Below are positions 26,393-36,690 of a stretch of 64,000 nucleotides of DNA, one piece after another (the stretch's first letter is position 1; each line of letters begins with the position of its first letter). The position numbers were made by a program, and so were the translations under genes. The notes beneath the pieces were generated by a model that was not told the DNA's origin, did not search any database, and saw nothing but the letters and a program-made list of their open reading frames with translations. The stretch spans positions 62,001 to 126,000 of the forward strand of contig JAWSUE010000006.1 of assembly GCA_033549065.1 (NCBI GenBank), written 5' to 3'. The DNA is from Bacillota bacterium. GTDB lineage: Bacteria > Bacillota > Dethiobacteria > DTU022.

Positions 26393-26506
26393 CGGATCAC
26401 CTCTTCTTTTACCTGAAAAAAGAGAAAATCTAAAGCTGTATTTTCCCCTACTAACATGAAAGAGTGGGAAATCCCACCCTTCGCCGAAAAAACATTTACC
26501 GAAATT

Positions 26507-26535
26507 AATTTACCACAAAAAACATCAAAAGGCAA
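26507..26535 (-). promoter_or_regulatory. Sigma-A-type promoter for the rimP-nusA operon
   Basis: On the minus strand, TTGCCT (26530-26535), 17 bases, then TAAATT (26507-26512), leaving a leader of about 105 bases before rimP. A small hairpin (GTGGG with CCCAC, 26464-26477) lies in the leader. The rest of the 238-base gap to the nitrilase gene shows nothing I can name. Confidence 0.5.
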
Positions 26536-26630
26536 TAATATAATAAGGTTGGATATTTTTCAATCAGGCAGGAAATAAACTATTTGTTTCGTATTAGTCA
26601 TTAAGCTTAGTCTTATTATAGAGGTGCTAA

Positions 26631-27575
26631 ATGATGCCTTTCAGGATTGTGGAGAGAAAGTTCTCAGAAAACGAAAACCTACCGACAGTTCTTTTGGCCA
26701 ATATATATGGATCACCAAGTGTTCAGTGTAACCTGGATAAAATGGATAAGATAATTGAGATTGCTCATAATAAAAATGTTAATATAGTTGTTTTTCCGGA
26801 GCTCAGTGTAACAGGGTATATCTGGAATACAAAACATCAAGAACAGATTACCGATCTATTGGCAGAAGGCGAAAACAACAGGATTAGATCATGGCTGAAG
26901 AATGTCAGGAACAGCCTGCATAGCAACGCTAACAGATTGGAGTATATAATTTACGGCAATGTTAGAAAAAGGTTAAACAGCTATTTTAACTGTGTTTTTA
27001 TTCTATGTCCTGAATTCGATTACCGTAGTGAGGATAAGATTTACGCCAAAGTATTTTTAACTCCTATTGAAAAAACATATTTTAGACAGGGAACTGATAA
27101 AAGACTCAGTATCGATACCAGGTGGGGCAAATTTGGTTTTTTGGTCTGCTACGACCTTTGCTATGTTGAACTTCCACGTCAGTATGCTTTTATTGACAAC
27201 GTTGATGCCATAGTGACTATCGCTGCCTGGCGCTCTCAGGCAATCAGGGAATATTCTAACATGAATATCCGGACCGACCACTATTATGGATTTCTATGGG
27301 ATCTGATGAATTCATCAAAGGCTGCGTACAATCAGGTCTGGAGCCTCGGTATTAACTGGGTCGGGCGTCATCAAAAAGGCAAGGAATACTTTTGGGGGGG
27401 AAGCGGAATATGGGCCCCCTCGGGGATGAAACTTCTTCAGGCATCTAACATTAACGAGGAACTGTTGATTATCAGAAACGTTGACATTAAAGAGCAGAGC
27501 ATTAAAGAAAAAGATGATTTTAATTACCGTATAGACTTCGAACATTTTTACCGTAATCTTGTCTACAAAGATTAA
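26631..27575 (+). CDS. Carbon-nitrogen hydrolase (nitrilase superfamily)
   Basis: The Glu-Lys-Cys triad is visible: Glu in VVFPELSVTGY, Lys in the AKVFLTPIEKTYF region, and Cys in LVCYDLCYVELPR. These enzymes hydrolyse nitriles, amides or carbamoyl groups. The substrate cannot be inferred; length is 314 residues. Two adjacent ATGs (26631, 26634) share GAGGTG. It is co-directional with the methyltransferase genes 199 bases downstream but separated from them by a sigma-54 promoter, so it may be regulated separately. A role in releasing a quaternary amine from an amide is speculation from position only. Confidence 0.85.
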   Translation: MMPFRIVERKFSENENLPTVLLANIYGSPSVQCNLDKMDKIIEIAHNKNVNIVVFPELSVTGYIWNTKHQEQITDLLAEGENNRIRSWLKNVRNSLHSNANRLEYIIYGNVRKRLNSYFNCVFILCPEFDYRSEDKIYAKVFLTPIEKTYFRQGTDKRLSIDTRWGKFGFLVCYDLCYVELPRQYAFIDNVDAIVTIAAWRSQAIREYSNMNIRTDHYYGFLWDLMNSSKAAYNQVWSLGINWVGRHQKGKEYFWGGSGIWAPSGMKLLQASNINEELLIIRNVDIKEQSIKEKDDFNYRIDFEHFYRNLVYKD

Positions 27576-27689
27576 CTCCCTACTATAATAATTTTGCATA
27601 TTTGATAAGTATTTTTAAAAGTGCACACCATTAATTCCCATTTTGCCTCTATCCCCTTTATTTTTAGCTCTATATTGATTTCTTAAATC

Positions 27690-27705
27690 TGGCATTAATA
27701 TTGCT
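27690..27705 (+). promoter_or_regulatory. Sigma-54 (-24/-12) promoter before the mttB pair
   Basis: The 16-base match TGGCATTAATATTGCT has the GG and GC dinucleotides at the required 10-base separation and fits TGGCAY-N5-TTGCW. Transcription would begin near 27717, about 58 bases before the first mttB-like ATG. A sigma-54 activator gene lies 7 kb downstream. Confidence 0.8.
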
Positions 27706-27774
27706 TAAATATTAATTGTCACTTAAAAGTATATTTATAGAACAGTAAAAACCGCGAAAAAAGGAGAATTTTTA

Positions 27775-29217
27775 ATGTTTAAGCACTGGAAAGGCAGCAA
27801 CCTTAGAGTTCTTTCCGAAAAAGATATCACTGCAATCCATGAAGCAACAGTGAACCTGTTAGAAAATACCGGAATTAAAATGCATAATGATCGCGCCAGG
27901 CAAATTTTTTCTGATCACCATGCGAAGGTGGATCATGATAATCAGATCGTAAAAATTCCCCGGTCGATGCTTGAAGAAGCTATTGATTCAACACCTTCTT
28001 CGTTAGTCCTTTGCGGAAGGGAAGAGAAAAATGACCTTATTCTTGAAGGTGCCAATGTATACTTAGGAACCGGGGGAACCGTCCTCAACACACTCGATCT
28101 TGAAAATGGCAGGAAGCGTCTTACTGAGGTTAAAGATGTGGCAGGTTATGCAAAGCTGGCAGATGCTTTAGATAATATTGCTTTTTTTGTAATCAATTGC
28201 TACCCCAGCGATGTTAAAACAGAAAATGTTGATATTAATCGCTTCTATCATGCGCTGGCCAATACTTCAAAGCATGTGATGGGTGGCATCTACACCATGG
28301 AAGGTTTACTGGCAGTGATCGAAATGGCAGAACAGATAGCCGGTGGATCAGAAAAACTGCGCCAACGCCCCTTTGTCTCCTTTATTACACTAATGATGAG
28401 CCCACTAGTTATGGAAGTAACCTATACCGATTTTTTAATTGAAATCGCCAGAAGAGGTCTCCCCGTAGCCACTCCCTCAGAACCTCTGGCCGGGGCGAAT
28501 TCACCGGTTACCCTGGCAGGAACGATCACTTTAAATAATGCAGAATCGCTGGGTGGACTTGTTCTGGCGCAACTGGTGAACAAAGGCACTCCGACAATCT
28601 ATGGATCAACATCCAGTATCATGGATATGCGCACCGGGACCTATATGGCTGGAAGTATTGAGTCAGCTTTGATAAACGCCGGATGCGCTCAAATGGCCCA
28701 ATATTATAAAATACCTGTTTATGGTACAGGCGGCATGTCCGATTCAAAAGTTGTTGATGCCCAGGCCGGTTATGAAAGCGCAAACACAGCGATGGTGGTG
28801 GCTCTTTCAGGATGCAACTACATCCACGATGCATTCGGTCTTCTGGAATTCTGCACAACTCTTTCCTATGAAAAAATGGTTATTGACAACGATTCCGTTG
28901 GTATGATTCTTCGGGCTGTTCGTGGTATAAAGGTCGACAAGGAAACTATCGCAAACGAAGTTATTTCAGATGTTGGTCCGGGAGGTCATTTTCTGGATCA
29001 CCCCCACACGGTCAAACATGTCCGGGAAGAGTTTTATTTTCCCCGCCTCTCCGACCGACAGCAGCGCAGCGTATGGGCTGAAGAAGGCTCGAAAGATACA
29101 TTCGAGAGAGCACGTGAAAAAGCAAAAGAGATCCTTGCCGGCCAAAAAGCACCGGGATTTTCTGAAGACCTTGAAAATCTTCTATTTTCCAGGAACAGGG
29201 GACTAAAAAAACTTTAG
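27775..29217 (+). CDS. MttB-family (non-pyrrolysine) quaternary/tertiary amine methyltransferase, copy 1
   Basis: A 480-residue member of the trimethylamine methyltransferase (MttB/MtgB) superfamily, which transfers a methyl group from an amine to a corrinoid protein. Shared family blocks: VYLGTGGTVLNTLDLENG, AGANSPVTLAGT and a GPGGHFLDHPHTVKH C-terminal block. The frame is read through with no in-frame amber codon, so it resembles the non-Pyl enzymes for glycine betaine, proline betaine, carnitine or butyrobetaine rather than trimethylamine MttB. AAAGGAG precedes the ATG. It is followed after 18 bases by a paralogue and then by an OpuC-type transporter. The methyl donor is unknown. Confidence 0.9.
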   Translation: MFKHWKGSNLRVLSEKDITAIHEATVNLLENTGIKMHNDRARQIFSDHHAKVDHDNQIVKIPRSMLEEAIDSTPSSLVLCGREEKNDLILEGANVYLGTGGTVLNTLDLENGRKRLTEVKDVAGYAKLADALDNIAFFVINCYPSDVKTENVDINRFYHALANTSKHVMGGIYTMEGLLAVIEMAEQIAGGSEKLRQRPFVSFITLMMSPLVMEVTYTDFLIEIARRGLPVATPSEPLAGANSPVTLAGTITLNNAESLGGLVLAQLVNKGTPTIYGSTSSIMDMRTGTYMAGSIESALINAGCAQMAQYYKIPVYGTGGMSDSKVVDAQAGYESANTAMVVALSGCNYIHDAFGLLEFCTTLSYEKMVIDNDSVGMILRAVRGIKVDKETIANEVISDVGPGGHFLDHPHTVKHVREEFYFPRLSDRQQRSVWAEEGSKDTFERAREKAKEILAGQKAPGFSEDLENLLFSRNRGLKKL

Positions 29218-29235
29218 TTATTGGGAGGTTTTATT

Positions 29236-30684
29236 TTGTTAAAAGGTACCTATGCAAACTTCTATCAACCTCTTTCCATAAATGATATAAAGGCTATACA
29301 CGAAGCTTCCATGCAGGTACTATCCAAATCCGGATTGCTTATTGATAATAAAAGAGCCCTGCAGTTATTTCATGAAAAAGGTGCTCGTGTGGACTTCACC
29401 CACAAACTGGTTCAACTAGACGAGGATTGGGTGATGAAATACTTAAATAAGGCTCCGGCAAGGATTACTTTATATGGACGGGATGAGAATAATAATCTTG
29501 TGGTTGAACCGAACCGAGTTTATTTCGGCACCGGGGGAACGGCATTGAATATTCTTGACAGAAAATCCGGTAAGCGCAGACCTTCAGTTTCCAGTGATAT
29601 TGCCGATATAGCCCGTCTCGTTGATGCTCTGCCAAATATTCACTGGTATTGTTTACCATTATATCCGAATGAATGCCCCAAAGAAGAAGTCGATATTGCC
29701 AGGTTTTATCACGGTTTGAAGAACACCGGCAAACATGTTATGGGTGGCATTTACGGTGGTAAAGAAGGAGCCAGGGATGTGATCCGGCTTGCTCAAATAT
29801 TCGCCGGCGGTGAAGAAAATCTGCGGAATAATCCCTTGATCTCTGTTATATGCAGTACAATCAGCCCTTTAAAGATGGACACCCGCTATGTTGATTTTAT
29901 CTTTGATCTTGTTAATGCAGGAATTCCTATTGCTACTTCCTGTGCACCCATTGCCGGTGCCACCGCACCGGTTACCCTTGCCGGCAGTCTGGTCCAGATA
30001 AATGCGGAGGCTATTTGCGGCATATTATTGACCCAGGTTATTAAAGAAAGCGCTCCTGCACTTTACAGCACTGTTCCCACTACTGCAAACATGAAAAACA
30101 TGGATTTTCTCTTCGGGGCGGTGGAAAACGGTATTATGAATGCGGCCTGTGCGCAGCTGGCTTCCTTTTACAACCTGCCTATGTACTCAACCGGTGGAGT
30201 TACCGAGTCCAAAATTTTCGATATCCAAAACGGTTATGAAAAGTGTATGAATAACCTTCTGCCGGCGATAGCCGGAGCTCAGCTGATACATAATGCAGCC
30301 GGTCAAATCGATAGTAGTATGACAGTCGCCTATGAACAATATGTCCTCGATGATGAAATAATTGGTATGGCCCTTCGTGTAATGGAGGGAATTCGCATCA
30401 CTTCTGACACCCTTGCATTGGAAGAAATATGTAAAGTTGGCCCGGGTGGCAACTATCTGGCATCTGATCATACCGTAAGAAATATGCGCCATGAACTCTT
30501 TATGCCAAAAGTCGCAGTTCGGACAAATTATGCAGCCTGGTTACGAGAAGGGAAAAGGAATGCTATCGATTTTGCCCGCGAAATAACCGATCAAATATTA
30601 GAAGATCATTATGCTCAATCGCTGCCTGAAAATACGGAGAGCGAAATTTTTATGAATTACCCGTTTCTGAAAGAAGGTGAATGA
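29236..30684 (+). CDS. MttB-family (non-pyrrolysine) methyltransferase, copy 2
   Basis: Paralogue of the preceding gene, with the same block order: VYFGTGGTALNILDRKSGKR, IAGATAPVTLAGS and VGPGGNYLASDHTVRNM. The frame opens at TTG 29221, but GGGAGG at 29223-29228 points to TTG 29236, giving 482 residues starting MLKGTYANFYQPLS. No amber codon interrupts it. Two adjacent diverged copies suggest two related substrates, or a heteromer. Neither a cognate corrinoid protein nor a corrinoid:tetrahydrofolate methyltransferase is in the window. Confidence 0.9.
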   Translation: MLKGTYANFYQPLSINDIKAIHEASMQVLSKSGLLIDNKRALQLFHEKGARVDFTHKLVQLDEDWVMKYLNKAPARITLYGRDENNNLVVEPNRVYFGTGGTALNILDRKSGKRRPSVSSDIADIARLVDALPNIHWYCLPLYPNECPKEEVDIARFYHGLKNTGKHVMGGIYGGKEGARDVIRLAQIFAGGEENLRNNPLISVICSTISPLKMDTRYVDFIFDLVNAGIPIATSCAPIAGATAPVTLAGSLVQINAEAICGILLTQVIKESAPALYSTVPTTANMKNMDFLFGAVENGIMNAACAQLASFYNLPMYSTGGVTESKIFDIQNGYEKCMNNLLPAIAGAQLIHNAAGQIDSSMTVAYEQYVLDDEIIGMALRVMEGIRITSDTLALEEICKVGPGGNYLASDHTVRNMRHELFMPKVAVRTNYAAWLREGKRNAIDFAREITDQILEDHYAQSLPENTESEIFMNYPFLKEGE

Positions 30685-31058
30685 AATAAGCATCTATTAT
30701 TAAAAAATGGATTCTAAGAGTCTCTCATATGCTCTGCAAGCGTCTGGTTGCATAAATTGTGGTCTCTTCGTAAATACTTCTTAATCGGCAATATACTGCA
30801 GATATGCTTGCATATATGCAGTTTGTGCATGATTTGTGTATATGAGATGATTGTCTTACAGTTTAATTATAATCAGCAAATAAACAATATATCGCATAAA
30901 AGTCAAATTATCCTCGCAGTTTTATTCTTAACTGGTTATTCCTTTTTCTGGGTTATATCTCTGACACAGATCTAGCGACTTTAGTTTAACCAAGTCAGTT
31001 CTAATATTTTTCAATCGTTTGTACCTCATATAAAACGGGGAGGGTGGTTCAAAGGTAA
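30685..31058 (+). promoter_or_regulatory. 374-base gap before the opuC operon; candidate operator
   Basis: No convincing gene. The DNA is AT-rich with a perfect palindrome TGCATATATGCA at 30809-30820 inside a cluster of spaced TGCA/GCA repeats (about 30797-30830), which could bind a dimeric regulator. No sequence fits a correctly spaced sigma-54 site, and no sigma-A pair was convincing. No terminator is evident after the methyltransferase gene, so read-through into opuC is possible. Confidence 0.35.
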
Positions 31059-31796
31059 ATGGCAGAGCAACTTATTTTGCTTGGCAGCAAAATGTACTGT
31101 ACATTTTCAAACTTCATAGTTCAGCAAACTATGGCAACTCCGTCGACTTTTTCGAGAGTCATTATTTATTTACAAAGGCGAAGCGACTTAGTTTGGGAAT
31201 TGATGGTTGAGCACATCTGGTTAGTGCTGGTTTCAATCGGTATTGCTGTGGTTATATCGGTGATTGTTGGAGTAATGATCAGCTATAAAAGCAGTCTGGC
31301 TGTTTCCGTCCTCACAGTATGCCAGATTCTAATGACCATACCCAGTATGGCTATGTTGGCTTTTATGGTTCCCCTGTTTGGGATCGGTTTCACCACCGGG
31401 GTGGTGGCTTTAATTCTTTACAGTTTGCTGCCGATTGTGCGCAATACTTACACGGGGATTAAAGAGATAAGCCCGGCGATAGTTGAATCTGCAGTTGCCA
31501 TGGGCATGACTGAATGGCGGGTTTTAACAAAAATTAAGATTCCGCTGGCCAGGCCGGTGATCATGGCGGGTATTCGCACGGCGACAGTTATGATCGTCGG
31601 TATTGGAGCTATTGCTGCTTATGTTGGCGCCGGAGGGCTGGGCGAGTTAATATTTCAGGGTATTTCGCGTTCCAACGAACCGATGATCATCGTCGGAGCT
31701 TTGGGTGTGTCAATTATAGCCCTGGCTTTTGATTTTATTTTATCATGGGGTGAACGGAAGCTGATTGCCATTGGTAAAACGGGGGAGGCTAAGTAA
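31059..31796 (+). CDS. opuCB: OpuC-type glycine betaine/choline ABC transporter, permease 1
   Basis: An inner-membrane permease of the BPD_transp_1 family, with about six hydrophobic segments and the cytoplasmic EAA-like loop IVESAVAMGMTEWRVLTKIKIPLA. Such permeases form one half of osmoprotectant or quaternary-amine importers. The ATG at 31059 has AAAGG only 3 bases away, and the N-terminus before about residue 40 is unlike the family, so a later start is possible. Stop and next start overlap (TAATG). Confidence 0.88.
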   Translation: MAEQLILLGSKMYCTFSNFIVQQTMATPSTFSRVIIYLQRRSDLVWELMVEHIWLVLVSIGIAVVISVIVGVMISYKSSLAVSVLTVCQILMTIPSMAMLAFMVPLFGIGFTTGVVALILYSLLPIVRNTYTGIKEISPAIVESAVAMGMTEWRVLTKIKIPLARPVIMAGIRTATVMIVGIGAIAAYVGAGGLGELIFQGISRSNEPMIIVGALGVSIIALAFDFILSWGERKLIAIGKTGEAK

Positions 31797-32908
31797 TGAT
31801 AAAACTGGAAGGCTTAACAAAAAAATTCCCGGGTTTACAAAACCCTGCGGTTAATAACCTGGACCTTGAAGTAAAAGAGGGAGATATTTGTGTATTAGTC
31901 GGACCTTCAGGATGCGGCAAAACAACAACGATGAAGATGATTAACCGCATCCATGAGCCTACAAGCGGTTCGATTCATATTAACGGAAAAGATGCTTTGA
32001 AAATGAGCCCTATCAAGCTCCGCCTCGATATCGGTTACGTGATCCAGGAAATTGGCCTTTTCCCGCACCACACTATCGAAGAAAATGTGGCTACAGTACC
32101 AAACGAAAAAAAATGGCCAAAAGAGAAAACCAAAAAGAAAGTAGCTGAAATGCTAACCCTGGTTGGTCTCGATCCGGAGATCTATGGAAAACGCTATCCA
32201 TCAGCACTGAGCGGTGGCCAGCGACAGCGTGTTGGCGTAGCCAGGGCCATGGCTTCCGACCCGCCAATTATGCTGATGGATGAACCTTTTGGAGCAGTTG
32301 ATCCAATTACCAGGGCTCGCTTGCAAAATGAATTTTTAAGGATTCAGGAAAGAATCAGCAAGACCATTGTTTTTGTTACCCATGATATCGACGAAGCGAT
32401 CAAGATGGGAGATACCATTGCTGTCATGCAGGAGGGGAAATTAATTCAACACGCTACACCAAATGACTTGCTCAGTACTCCTGCCAATGAATTCGTGGCC
32501 AACCTGGTAGGCCGTAACCGCTCAATTAAAAGGCTTCACCTAATACGCATACGTGAAATTTTAAAAGATGTTGATCGCATGAAACCAGCCACCGAAGATA
32601 TGCCGCTGGATGATTTGAAGAAGAGGCTGGAAGAAAGCGAAGTGCGTTCCGTGATGGTTGTTAATCGGGATAATCGGTTAAAAGGAATCATCAGTGTTGC
32701 TGATCTGAAGCGGAAAGCGGGTGAAGTGGCTGCCGATTATATCCAGGAGGTCGATCACTCTGTAACCAGCGATGCCACATTGAACGATGCTTTGTCGGTG
32801 ATGCTCGAATGCGGCGAGGGTTTTGTAGCAGTGGTTAACGAAGATGACCAGTACCAGGGAACTATAACCTTGGGTGATCTGCTGAATGTTGTGAAGGAGG
32901 ATGTGTAA
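31796..32908 (+). CDS. opuCA: OpuC-type ABC transporter ATP-binding protein with CBS domains
   Basis: The 370-residue ATPase has Walker A GPSGCGKTTT, signature LSGGQRQRVGVARAM, Walker B IMLMDEPFGAVDP and HDIDEAIKMGD. After about residue 255 come two CBS domains (RSVMVVNRDNRLKGIISVADL and GFVAVVNEDDQYQGTITLGDL), which in OpuA/OpuC proteins sense ionic strength or nucleotides. It lies between the two permease genes, the usual OpuC order. Confidence 0.93.
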   Translation: MIKLEGLTKKFPGLQNPAVNNLDLEVKEGDICVLVGPSGCGKTTTMKMINRIHEPTSGSIHINGKDALKMSPIKLRLDIGYVIQEIGLFPHHTIEENVATVPNEKKWPKEKTKKKVAEMLTLVGLDPEIYGKRYPSALSGGQRQRVGVARAMASDPPIMLMDEPFGAVDPITRARLQNEFLRIQERISKTIVFVTHDIDEAIKMGDTIAVMQEGKLIQHATPNDLLSTPANEFVANLVGRNRSIKRLHLIRIREILKDVDRMKPATEDMPLDDLKKRLEESEVRSVMVVNRDNRLKGIISVADLKRKAGEVAADYIQEVDHSVTSDATLNDALSVMLECGEGFVAVVNEDDQYQGTITLGDLLNVVKEDV

Positions 32909-32911
32909 ACC

Positions 32912-33637
32912 ATGACTAAACAGCTATGGCGCTGGGTCATCCTCCCGCTGATTTTGATCTCCATCGGCGTGGTTATCGTTGTTTACACGGTTAATAATCC
33001 CACCGATTCCCTGGTTGCTCGTGCCCTTACCTACAACAATGTTTTAAAGGGGCTGCGGGAGCATCTGCAATTGATGGTTGTTTCGATGTTTGGCGCTATT
33101 ATTTTCGGTATTTTAGTAGGCATTATGCTTTCAAGGCCTAAACTTTATTATCTTGGTCGTGGAGTAGAAAATGTCGTCAACGTGGGTCAAACTATTCCAA
33201 GCCTGGCGATCCTGGCTCTCTTTTTTACTATTTTGGGACTCGGTTTCAGGGTGGCTGTATTCGCGCTGTTTCTCTATTCCATCTTACCGATCCTGCGCAA
33301 CACTTTTGCCGGTATTATCAATGTCCCGAAAAGTATAATTGAATCGGCAGTAGGCATGGGTATGAGTCCTTTTCGGGTCCTCACAAAGATAGAACTGCCG
33401 CTTGCCTTCCCAATTATCGTGGCCGGAATCAGAACCGCGATTGTGGTCAATGTCGGTGCAGCTACACTTGCCACCTTTATCGGTGGTGGCGGCTTCGGAG
33501 ACCTTATCGTAACCGGCCTCTCACTGCGCCGGGATATGATTGTCTTTACCGGTGCCGGACTGGCGGCGCTTACCGCTATCATTCTTGATTATTATATTGC
33601 CAGAATTGAAGAAAACCTGGTTAAGTGGGTTGGTTAA
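32912..33637 (+). CDS. opuCD: OpuC-type ABC transporter, permease 2
   Basis: The second permease (241 residues), with the EAA loop IIESAVGMGMSPFRVLTKIELPLA almost matching that of the first permease, and about six membrane segments. It starts 3 bases after the ATPase stop. With the other three genes it makes a complete importer. Confidence 0.9.
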   Translation: MTKQLWRWVILPLILISIGVVIVVYTVNNPTDSLVARALTYNNVLKGLREHLQLMVVSMFGAIIFGILVGIMLSRPKLYYLGRGVENVVNVGQTIPSLAILALFFTILGLGFRVAVFALFLYSILPILRNTFAGIINVPKSIIESAVGMGMSPFRVLTKIELPLAFPIIVAGIRTAIVVNVGAATLATFIGGGGFGDLIVTGLSLRRDMIVFTGAGLAALTAIILDYYIARIEENLVKWVG

Positions 33638-33692
33638 AATATAAATTTGGCTGTTTTCTTTAGTAGGTAAAATATAAGGGGGTATATGTTTT

Positions 33693-34628
33693 ATGACTTT
33701 GAAACGTTTTGCTTTATTTTGCTTGATAGCGCTGATGATTGCCGGTTTATTTTTTGTAGCCGGCTGTCAGCCTGAAGATGAAACCGTTGATGTTACTGTT
33801 GTTGTCGGTTCAAAAGAATTTACCGAGTCTCTTATTCTAAGCCAGCTTGCAATCCTGGCGTTGGAAGATAAGGGGTTTACAGTAGTTGATGAGACAGGTC
33901 TCGGCGGCACCGTTATAGCACGGGAAGCCCTTGAAGCAGGAGAAATTGATCTTTACTGGGAATACACCGGAACAGCTTTGGTAAATTATTTCGGTTTTGA
34001 TGTTATTACAGACCCTGAAGAATGCTACCAGTTGGTAAAAGCAACCGATTTGGAGCAAAACGGACTGGTATGGCTCGATTACACTCAATATAATAATACA
34101 TACGTTATTATGATGCGTCAGGCTGATGCCGAAGCCCTGGGAATTGCATCAATCAGTGACTTGGCAGCGGCAATCAACGAAGGCGTTGATGCGCCTGATC
34201 CGGGTAGTTGGATTTTTGGTAGTAACCATGAATATTCGACCCGTGACGATGGTTTTCCGGGTTTACTCGAGCACTATGGGTTTGAATTTGATAGTGTGGA
34301 CGTTATGGATTATGGAATTCTTTACACAGCTTTGAGAGATGGAGATCTTGCTTGTGCTATGGGTTTTGGTACCGATGGACGAATAACTCCATTTAATTTA
34401 GTTATTCTCGAAGATGACCAATACTTCCATCCGGTCTACAATAGTTCTCCTGTTATCCGTCAGGACAAATTAGAGGAGGCACCGCAAATTGCCGATATAT
34501 TGAATCCCATAGCCAGTGCTCTTGACAATGAGAATATGTCGAATTTGAACCGGTTAGTTGATGAGGAAGATTACCTGCCCGAAGAAGTTGCCGAGGAGTG
34601 GTTACGAGAGCAGGGCTTTATTAACTAA
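33693..34628 (+). CDS. opuCC: OpuC-type substrate-binding lipoprotein
   Basis: The extracellular binding protein of the transporter. A lipoprotein signal peptide ends at the lipobox VAGC (Cys about residue 25). The mature part begins with the family's VVVGSKEFTESLILSQL and has GTVIAREALEAGEIDLYWEYTG, as in OpuC/ProX-type betaine, choline or carnitine binders. Length is 311 residues. Ligand choice among quaternary amines is not decidable here, but the linked methyltransferases suggest a catabolic substrate rather than only an osmolyte. Confidence 0.9.
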   Translation: MTLKRFALFCLIALMIAGLFFVAGCQPEDETVDVTVVVGSKEFTESLILSQLAILALEDKGFTVVDETGLGGTVIAREALEAGEIDLYWEYTGTALVNYFGFDVITDPEECYQLVKATDLEQNGLVWLDYTQYNNTYVIMMRQADAEALGIASISDLAAAINEGVDAPDPGSWIFGSNHEYSTRDDGFPGLLEHYGFEFDSVDVMDYGILYTALRDGDLACAMGFGTDGRITPFNLVILEDDQYFHPVYNSSPVIRQDKLEEAPQIADILNPIASALDNENMSNLNRLVDEEDYLPEEVAEEWLREQGFIN

Positions 34629-34702: not shown

Positions 34703-34740
34703 CAGGGGCAGGCATTTAACAGGTGCTTGTCCCTGTTTTA
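34703..34740 (+). terminator. Terminator after the opuC operon
   Basis: A 12-bp stem with two G-U pairs (34703-34714 with 34724-34735), a 9-base loop and TTTT after it. It lies 75 bases past the opuCC stop and before the convergent activator gene. Confidence 0.7.
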
Positions 34741-34766: not shown

Positions 34767-36584
34767 TTATGTACTGTTAAGCTTAAGCTTACGATACAAT
34801 GTGGTAATGCTGATTCCCAGTTCAGCAGCGATCTTTTTCTTGGCTGCCAGTGACGTTCCGTATTCGCTAATCAACTTTTCAATATGATCAGCTTCCCATT
34901 CCTTGCTTTTCTGCTTCAGTTTCTGGCCATTTAATTGCTGTAAATCATTTGTTAACAACCAGCGGGGCAAGCTATTATTTTTTAGTGTTTTACTATTCTC
35001 AAAATTAACTGCATACTCAACAACGTTTTCCAGCTCACGAACATTTCCGGGCCAGTCATAGTTATAAAATATTTGCTGTACATCCTGCTCAATCGTAAAA
35101 ATGTTTTTACCCATCAGAAAGCTGTATTTCTCCAGCAAATATTCCGCTAACAATAAAATATCTTCCCGACGTTCGCGCAAAGCAGGAAGTAGAAGTGGGA
35201 TAACATTGAGACGATAATATAGATCACTCCGAAAAAGACCTTCCTTTACCATTGACTCAAGGCTTTTGTTGGTTGCGGCGATTATGCGAACATTAAAACG
35301 GTAGTCCCCTGTTCCACCAACCCTTTCGAAGGAGCTGCTTTCCAAAACTCTCAGAAGTTTAGCCTGAAGCAGCAGCGGCATATCGCCGATTTCATCAAGG
35401 AAAAGTGTTCCCCCATCTGCAAGCTCGAACTTACCGGGTTTTCCACCTTTACGGGCACCTGTAAACGCTCCTTCTTCATAACCGAAGAGTTCACTCTCGA
35501 GTAATGATTCCGGGATTGCGCTGCAGTTTATTACCTGGAAGGGCCCGCTTCCAAAGGGACTGGCTTTATGTATTGCCCTGGCAAAAAGCTCTTTTCCCGT
35601 GCCGCTTTCACCTCTTAAAAGAATTGTAGATCTGCCGGCGGCAATAATTTTAGCTTTTTCAATCAGGTTGCGGATTATCATACTTTCACCACAAATATCT
35701 TCGAAACTAACTTCTTCATGTCGACTGGCCAAACTGTCGGCATAGCGGGTAATAGTTTTAATGTCGTTAAAAGTCATAACAGCGCCTACTATAGTGCCAT
35801 TTAACATAATCGGGAATGCAGAACAGGCAATTTTCAATGCAGATAACTCATTTGCATAGCTTATTTCACTTTTGAGCTGTGCCTTGCATGTACTGATAAC
35901 TGAAGGTATTGGCGAATCTGGAAATAAATTCTGAATTAATTTTCCAGTGAAGTAATCGCCATCTATGTTTAATAGTTTTTCCGCTGCTTTATTAATATGT
36001 GAAATAGATGCATCGGCATTAACGGCAACGATCCCTTCGTTTACTGAATCGATAATCGTCTTAAGATGTTTTTCACTGCTGGCTGCCCTGCTCACTGCTT
36101 CATTCAACTGCGCCTGACCGGCAATCAACTCTCCCATTCTTGAAATGAAGTCTATAAAACGGGCTTGCCCGGATAGCAGGATCCGACGCTGATCTTCATC
36201 AAAGCTCAGCAGGCTGATTGTTCCGATTGTTTTCCCCTTTCTACTGACGGGACATACAAGAGCGGCCGTACAAAAACAATTCTCTTTTATTTTGCAATGC
36301 GCACATAAATAATGTGAGCCCGGCCTGTCAATTGTGCAACTTGTTCCGCCCTCAATAATATATTTTGCAACATGGGCTGTCTCCTGTTTGAAACCTATCT
36401 TACTTCTGATTCTTCCTGTTGCTCCGACGACAATGAGATTTTCATCGAATATTTCTACTTCCATATTTAGTGCAGAAGCTATCGCTTCAGCTATTTCCTG
36501 GACGACTAATTGTATTTTCTGAAGTTCACTTAAAATATTAAGCACCCCTCTCGCCTGATTTACTCTACAATAATTTCTTCGCAT
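34767..36584 (-). CDS. Sigma-54-dependent transcriptional activator with sensor and PAS domains
   Basis: A bacterial enhancer-binding protein of 605 residues. Residues about 20-165 form a GAF-like sensor resembling the sugar-diacid or PrdR-type sensors, with a Cys cluster (C-x12-CAHCKIKENCFC). A PAS domain follows (IIDSVNEGIVAVNADA). The AAA+ motor has Walker A GESGTGKE near residue 323, the sigma-54-contacting GAFTGA loop near residue 372 and Walker B GGTLFLDEIGDMP. A Fis-type HTH ends the protein (AAELGISITTLYRKLKL). The only visible sigma-54 promoter in the window is before the mttB pair, so this protein probably controls it. The start is uncertain; ATG 36584 has only a weak AAAGG 12 bases away. 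Confidence 0.93.
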   Translation of the reverse strand: MRRNYCRVNQARGVLNILSELQKIQLVVQEIAEAIASALNMEVEIFDENLIVVGATGRIRSKIGFKQETAHVAKYIIEGGTSCTIDRPGSHYLCAHCKIKENCFCTAALVCPVSRKGKTIGTISLLSFDEDQRRILLSGQARFIDFISRMGELIAGQAQLNEAVSRAASSEKHLKTIIDSVNEGIVAVNADASISHINKAAEKLLNIDGDYFTGKLIQNLFPDSPIPSVISTCKAQLKSEISYANELSALKIACSAFPIMLNGTIVGAVMTFNDIKTITRYADSLASRHEEVSFEDICGESMIIRNLIEKAKIIAAGRSTILLRGESGTGKELFARAIHKASPFGSGPFQVINCSAIPESLLESELFGYEEGAFTGARKGGKPGKFELADGGTLFLDEIGDMPLLLQAKLLRVLESSSFERVGGTGDYRFNVRIIAATNKSLESMVKEGLFRSDLYYRLNVIPLLLPALRERREDILLLAEYLLEKYSFLMGKNIFTIEQDVQQIFYNYDWPGNVRELENVVEYAVNFENSKTLKNNSLPRWLLTNDLQQLNGQKLKQKSKEWEADHIEKLISEYGTSLAAKKKIAAELGISITTLYRKLKLNST

Positions 36585-36690
36585 TATTGAAAATTACCTT
36601 TGCATTATTGATATTTTTTAATAGAATTGGAACATTATTTTTAAAATTTATTAAAGGTGATATTCTGTAAGAATATTTAAGAGGATGAAT

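Follow-up and report, generated by a model that had tools for sequence, protein, structure and literature searches.

Which promoter drives the pair of corrinoid methyltransferase genes at this locus, and which protein opens it? The pair lies in a 64-kb stretch of DNA (hereafter the window) of a 2.39-Mb genome assembled in 61 contigs. The first gene, mttB1 (27775-29217, + strand), is followed after 3 bases by mttB2 (29221-30684, +), which begins with TTG, and PF06253 spans nearly the full length of both products (E-values of 8.8e-117 and 2.7e-105, respectively), placing them in the MttB superfamily. An assignment to the pyrrolysine-containing trimethylamine methyltransferase, i.e. true MttB, was rejected, given that neither gene has an in-frame TAG and that their TIGR02369 scores (495.8 and 439.4 bits) fall below the cut-off of 525. 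Elsewhere in the genome, two of its nine MttB genes contain one in-frame TAG each (G000 C3:137802-139208 and C4:133578-134990; L018, L019 and L127, L128) and a PylS scoring above the family cut-off is encoded at C5:59422-60147, which together make pyrrolysine decoding likely in this organism. The best solved relative of the mttB1 product is the glycine betaine methyltransferase MtgB (PDB 9yce and 2qne), which is too distant to fix the substrate.

The neighbouring genes narrow the possibilities. Downstream of the pair, an opuC-like quaternary-amine ABC importer is encoded in the order permease, ATPase, permease, and binding protein (31059-34628, +); judged by enzyme family and adjoining importer, the substrate of the methyltransferases is likely a quaternary amine. 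The 374-base gap between mttB2 and the importer genes contains neither a sigma-54 site nor a terminator-like hairpin on the + strand, which makes read-through from the mttB pair plausible. A terminator-like hairpin of 15 pairs (34703-34735, +) ends the cluster ahead of a convergent activator gene; such hairpins occur in the region at chance level, and this one has the longest stem. Upstream of mttB1, and separated from it by 199 bases, lies a nitrilase-like gene (carbon-nitrogen hydrolase, PF00795; 26631-27575, +).

Within this upstream gap, the original prediction had placed a sigma-54 promoter of exact sequence and spacing, and both hold. The element TGGCATTAATATTGCT at 27690-27705 (+) carries GG and GC with 10 bases between them, as expected of a -24/-12 promoter, and is the sole match without mismatch to TGGCAY-N5-TTGCW in the entire 64-kb window. 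Its position was given correctly, while the distance to the mttB1 ATG at 27775, given as 70 bases, measures 69; a good ribosome-binding site (AAGGAG, 27761-27766) precedes this start codon. Sigma-54 promoters start transcription about 12 bases downstream of the -12 GC, a geometry that predicts a start near 27717 (+). The further claim that no other correctly spaced site precedes the importer or the nitrilase-like gene holds as well: neither gap (30685-31058 and 26393-26630, respectively) yielded a site with two or fewer mismatches. When up to two mismatches are allowed, the window shows no enrichment of sites (47 compared to a mean of 61 in shuffled sequence), so that the weight of the mttB1 site comes from its exactness and its context alone.

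This context is provided in part by the rest of the genome. It encodes one RpoN of 478 amino acids, complete with its activator-interacting (AID), core-binding (CBD), and DNA-binding (DBD) domains, as well as ten strong Sigma54_activat proteins and three weak matches. The strict sigma-54 pattern finds 15 exact sites genome-wide, compared to two for a reversed-pattern control. Twelve of these lie outside and three inside ORFs of at least 100 amino acids, and for ten an ORF of 90 or more amino acids comes within the next 200 bases of the same strand. Apart from mttB1, the genes found in this position encode a formate/nitrite transporter, a TctC-type receptor, a nitroreductase, a cupin, three class-III aminotransferases, a betaine/carnitine/choline transporter, and an acyl-CoA dehydrogenase. 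Contig C12 carries a second mttB operon in the order activator (of similar layout to the one in the window), exact site, BCCT transporter, corrinoid protein, and mttB, which supports a general scheme of activator, sigma-54 promoter, and mttB operon in this organism. Another exact site (G000 C4:100913-100928; L029, L130) is located just upstream of rpoN but faces the opposite direction, and no ORF of 90 amino acids or more was found behind it.

Is the site kept where the gene is kept? Close mttB1 orthologues are present as 17 genes in 16 of the 43 family genomes searched, the genome of the window included, at 72-80% identity (one at 69%); those relatives that bear names are metagenome genomes assigned to Syntrophomonadaceae or Bacillota. 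Readable upstream DNA was available for 15 orthologues, again counting the window. Left out were two duplicate rows (L133, the L074 gene in a wrong frame, and L134, the L076 gene by contig coordinates), L017 with only 15 upstream bases, and the 5'-truncated L084/L137 and L086/L056, which come without upstream DNA. An exact sigma-54 site lies within 150 bases of the start in seven of the 15 (the window, L070, L071, L072, L074, L076, and L079), and two more have inexact sites, with one mismatch in L075 and two in L090. The other six (L069, L073, L077, L078, L080, and L136) have no sigma-54 site upstream, and in L136 every match carries at least three mismatches. As a control, the 150 bases upstream of 93 other ORFs (150 or more amino acids each) from 13 of these loci were examined, and they contained no exact site and a single one-mismatch site. 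Spacers and flanks differ widely between the relatives, which shows that the element is conserved rather than the whole stretch. Eleven more distant loci from outside the family, which do not count among the 15 (L050, L051, L052, L053, L054, L057, L081, L082, L083, L085/L055, and L087), gave no exact site in the same upstream scan, the best being L082 with two mismatches. Taken together, consensus match, complete RpoN, conservation in relatives, and the 93-gene control make the assignment of 27690-27705 as sigma-54 promoter of the mttB pair a well-supported prediction.

The original prediction also named a GAFTGA-containing activator in this block, and the motif is indeed present in a 605-amino-acid protein encoded convergently at 34767-36584 (-). 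Its AAA+ Sigma54_activat domain with GAFTGA and its Fis-type DNA-binding HTH mark it as a bacterial enhancer-binding protein; they are preceded by a PAS domain and an N-terminal region matching SpoVT_C, a GAF-like fold. This N-terminal region contains a CxxC-x5-C motif common to three orthologues and to two of the three aligned paralogues having the region; the motif might bind a metal or an iron-sulphur centre, or sense redox. Orthologues of the activator are rare: they were found, at 57-68% identity, in four of 97 genomes of the class including its own, and in a sample of the phylum only the genome of the window (one of 398) has the gene.

In all three genomes that hold both activator and mttB1, the two genes share one cluster (mttB1 being cut by a contig edge in one), and the fourth genome with the activator, G029, has no mttB1. 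In G018 (L079), activator and mttB1 are divergently oriented around an exact sigma-54 site, and behind mttB1 come mttB2, preceded by a corrinoid protein gene, and then genes for an MmgE/PrpD protein and a binding protein. In G020 (L121), the activator has the same convergent orientation as in the window and closes a cluster of the order mttB1 (cut), mttB2, opuC, and mttB. The L121 contig starts within mttB1; over its last 79 residues, this copy shares 98.7% identity with the mttB1 of L071, which lies on another contig of the same genome and is preceded by an exact sigma-54 site. These near-identical mttB1 ends have different neighbours in L121 (G020:C66) and L071 (G020:C46), which may reflect a recent duplication or an effect of assembly.

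Where might the activator bind? A tentative candidate is TATCAAATATGCAAAA at 27592-27607 (-), 82 bases upstream of the sigma-54 promoter, which resembles a repeat at the activator gene itself. One copy of the repeat (copy 2; 36577-36592, -) overlaps the activator ATG and the other (copy 1; 36598-36613, -) lies 21 bases upstream of it. A 21-base tandem near-duplication (36577-36613) accounts for these two ATG-containing copies, and copy 1 reads ATG CAA AGG TAA, a leader frame of three codons. The pattern TCAAWWATGCRAA, drawn from the candidate site and the two activator-gene copies, has five exact matches genome-wide, three of which are these same sequences. When matrices trained on the activator-gene copies were run over both strands of the 64 kb outside the training copies, 27592-27607 tied for the best score with two of three training sets and came second with the third, in which the L071 site had joined the training. 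Among the 15 mttB1 loci that remained after removal of the duplicate rows L133 and L134, the three promoters from genomes with an activator orthologue scored highest (15.4, 13.5, and 11.8), with shuffle p-values of 0.0025 for the window, 0.02 for L071, and 0.045 for L079; the other twelve loci gave values of at least 0.09. The value for the window is unfair as a test since the motif was first noticed there by eye, and those for L071 and L079 are nearer to a fair one, although the L071 match, too, had been seen beforehand.

The activator-gene copies overlap a start codon and ribosome-binding region, and for this reason they may not be operators. We therefore regard 27592-27607 as a suggestive lead that is confounded by the start codon of the activator. 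A sequence conserved between the window and G020, TTTTCAATWATGCRAAGAA, was discarded as an operator candidate, as the start codon falls within it (preceded in G020 by AAAGGAG), and it does not constitute independent evidence. A search for dyads upstream of the promoter returned weak AT-rich inverted repeats only, and scanning the opuC gap with the window motif gave nothing notable (the best hit ranked between 123 and 347, according to the training set).

Other relatives pair the same gene with a different regulator. In L070, L072, L075, and L076, the gene just ahead of mttB1 encodes an activator of 485-507 amino acids, and the sigma-54 site lies in the space separating the two genes. These proteins are 73-81% identical among themselves, and the one of the four that was scanned (L072) has PAS, AAA+, and HTH domains. 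Their best match in the genome of the window reaches about 39% identity at most, which argues that no orthologue exists there. Three of the four loci (L070:493-601, L072:8201-8276, and L075:3272-3347) contain two or three copies of the palindrome TGCAAA-N5-TTTGCA upstream of the alternative activator gene, between it and a divergent sigma-54 site, and the palindrome is absent from the window. On the side facing mttB1, a search of these loci found no activator site common to them; words shared there were rejected as operators, since they belong to the end of the activator coding sequence, with the palindromes located on the far side of this gene. Promoter and enzyme are thus kept while the adjoining activator differs between relatives. 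One structural gene with its sigma-54 core promoter may, as we tentatively suggest, have been handed between unrelated activators, i.e. the GAF-like/PAS protein of 605 amino acids in three genera and the PAS-only type in two further genera (four genomes). We found no description of such an exchange in the open-licence literature, in searches that were not directed at this point.

How else could these observations be explained? That the sigma-54 site is a chance match in AT-rich intergenic DNA is very unlikely: the window does hold fewer matches with up to two mismatches than shuffled sequence and three of the 15 exact genomic sites fall inside ORFs, but against it stand the excess over the reversed pattern and a site that is exact before seven of 15 orthologues and before none of 93 other genes, in flanks and spacers that differ between relatives. 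Transcription of the pair mainly by the housekeeping sigma factor, with a minor or decayed sigma-54 site, has a slim chance. A sigma-70-like site (TCTACA-16-TATAAT, 10 of 12 matches) at 27562-27589 and the lack of a terminator-like hairpin on the + strand between the nitrilase-like gene and mttB1 make basal or read-through transcription possible, and the six orthologues devoid of a sigma-54 site manage without one. However, sigma-70-like sites occur at chance level (26 observed, 23.7 expected) and so carry no signal, and a perfect match is not what a decayed site would be expected to present.

The identity of the activator is the more serious question. Given that the genome encodes nine strong Sigma54_activat proteins besides the neighbour, two of which share its N-terminal layout at 38-43% identity, a true sigma-54 promoter could be opened mainly by another of these proteins, such as one of the two paralogues on contig C12, in which case the convergent neighbour would act on some other target. 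The different activator that adjoins mttB1 in four relatives would fit this explanation as well. We nevertheless consider it rather unlikely, as the linkage of neighbour and mttB1 is conserved in all three genomes that have both, the alternative activator of the relatives has no orthologue here, the activator at C12:22k adjoins a site and an mttB operon of its own, and that at C12:60k adjoins a divergent site before an aminotransferase gene. The original claim that the neighbouring activator switches on the methyltransferases is partly borne out, with linkage in three of three genomes and a similar motif in its favour, and nine other activators, the other activator in four relatives, and the confounded motif against it; on genomic grounds, the protein encoded at 34767-36584 is the likely activator of the mttB promoter.

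The reading we favour, and hold to be probable, is that of a sigma-54 promoter of an operon for quaternary-amine import and demethylation, opened by the convergent GAFTGA activator. The -24/-12 element at 27690-27705 would serve an operon comprising mttB1-mttB2 and probably reading on into the opuC importer, whose products would import and demethylate a quaternary amine. RNA polymerase carrying RpoN would wait at the element as a closed complex. With its GAF-like N-terminal region and its PAS domain, the activator could sense a small molecule or a redox signal; it would bind upstream DNA (possibly at 27592-27607) and open the complex, such that transcription would start near 27717.

Sigma-54 control of betaine and MttB genes has already been published (PMC12456013; PMC12316311), and the locus in the window is mainly a new example. 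As described for Sporomusa sphaeroides KIAC, a betaine cluster is under SigL/RpoN control, has mapped transcription starts, and is activated under betaine conditions; its methyltransferases are those for betaine and trimethylamine (PMC12456013). That cluster and the window have in common sigma-54-type promoters, sigma-54 regulators, betaine transporters, and methyltransferases, but KIAC combines an opuD-type transporter with glycine betaine reductase (PMC12456013), whereas the window combines an opuC-type importer with two adjacent mttB genes, and starts that are mapped in KIAC are only predicted in the window. A survey of the class Clostridia by scoring matrix predicted sigma-54 control of MttB (COG5598), i.e. 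the same gene family and promoter type as here; its relevant passages do not mention activator, operon structure, or activator exchange (PMC12316311). Work on Clostridiales sigma-54 regulons reported activators with cognate upstream sites and the consensus TTGGCATNNNNNTTGCT, which is near-identical to the site in the window; the words methyltransferase, trimethylamine, glycine betaine, and choline are absent from the main text of that paper (PMC6615313).

MttB-type enzymes are numerous in the genomes of this group, and their substrates are not revealed by sequence. A promoter with a dedicated activator offers a handle on this problem: given that the inducer of the activator is likely also the substrate of the enzyme, a single induction experiment could identify the two together. 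The relatives further offer a natural example in which the activator beside a conserved promoter may have been exchanged. If this exchange is real, the enzyme stays while the sensor changes, and one would expect these bacteria to differ in the inducer or in how it is used.
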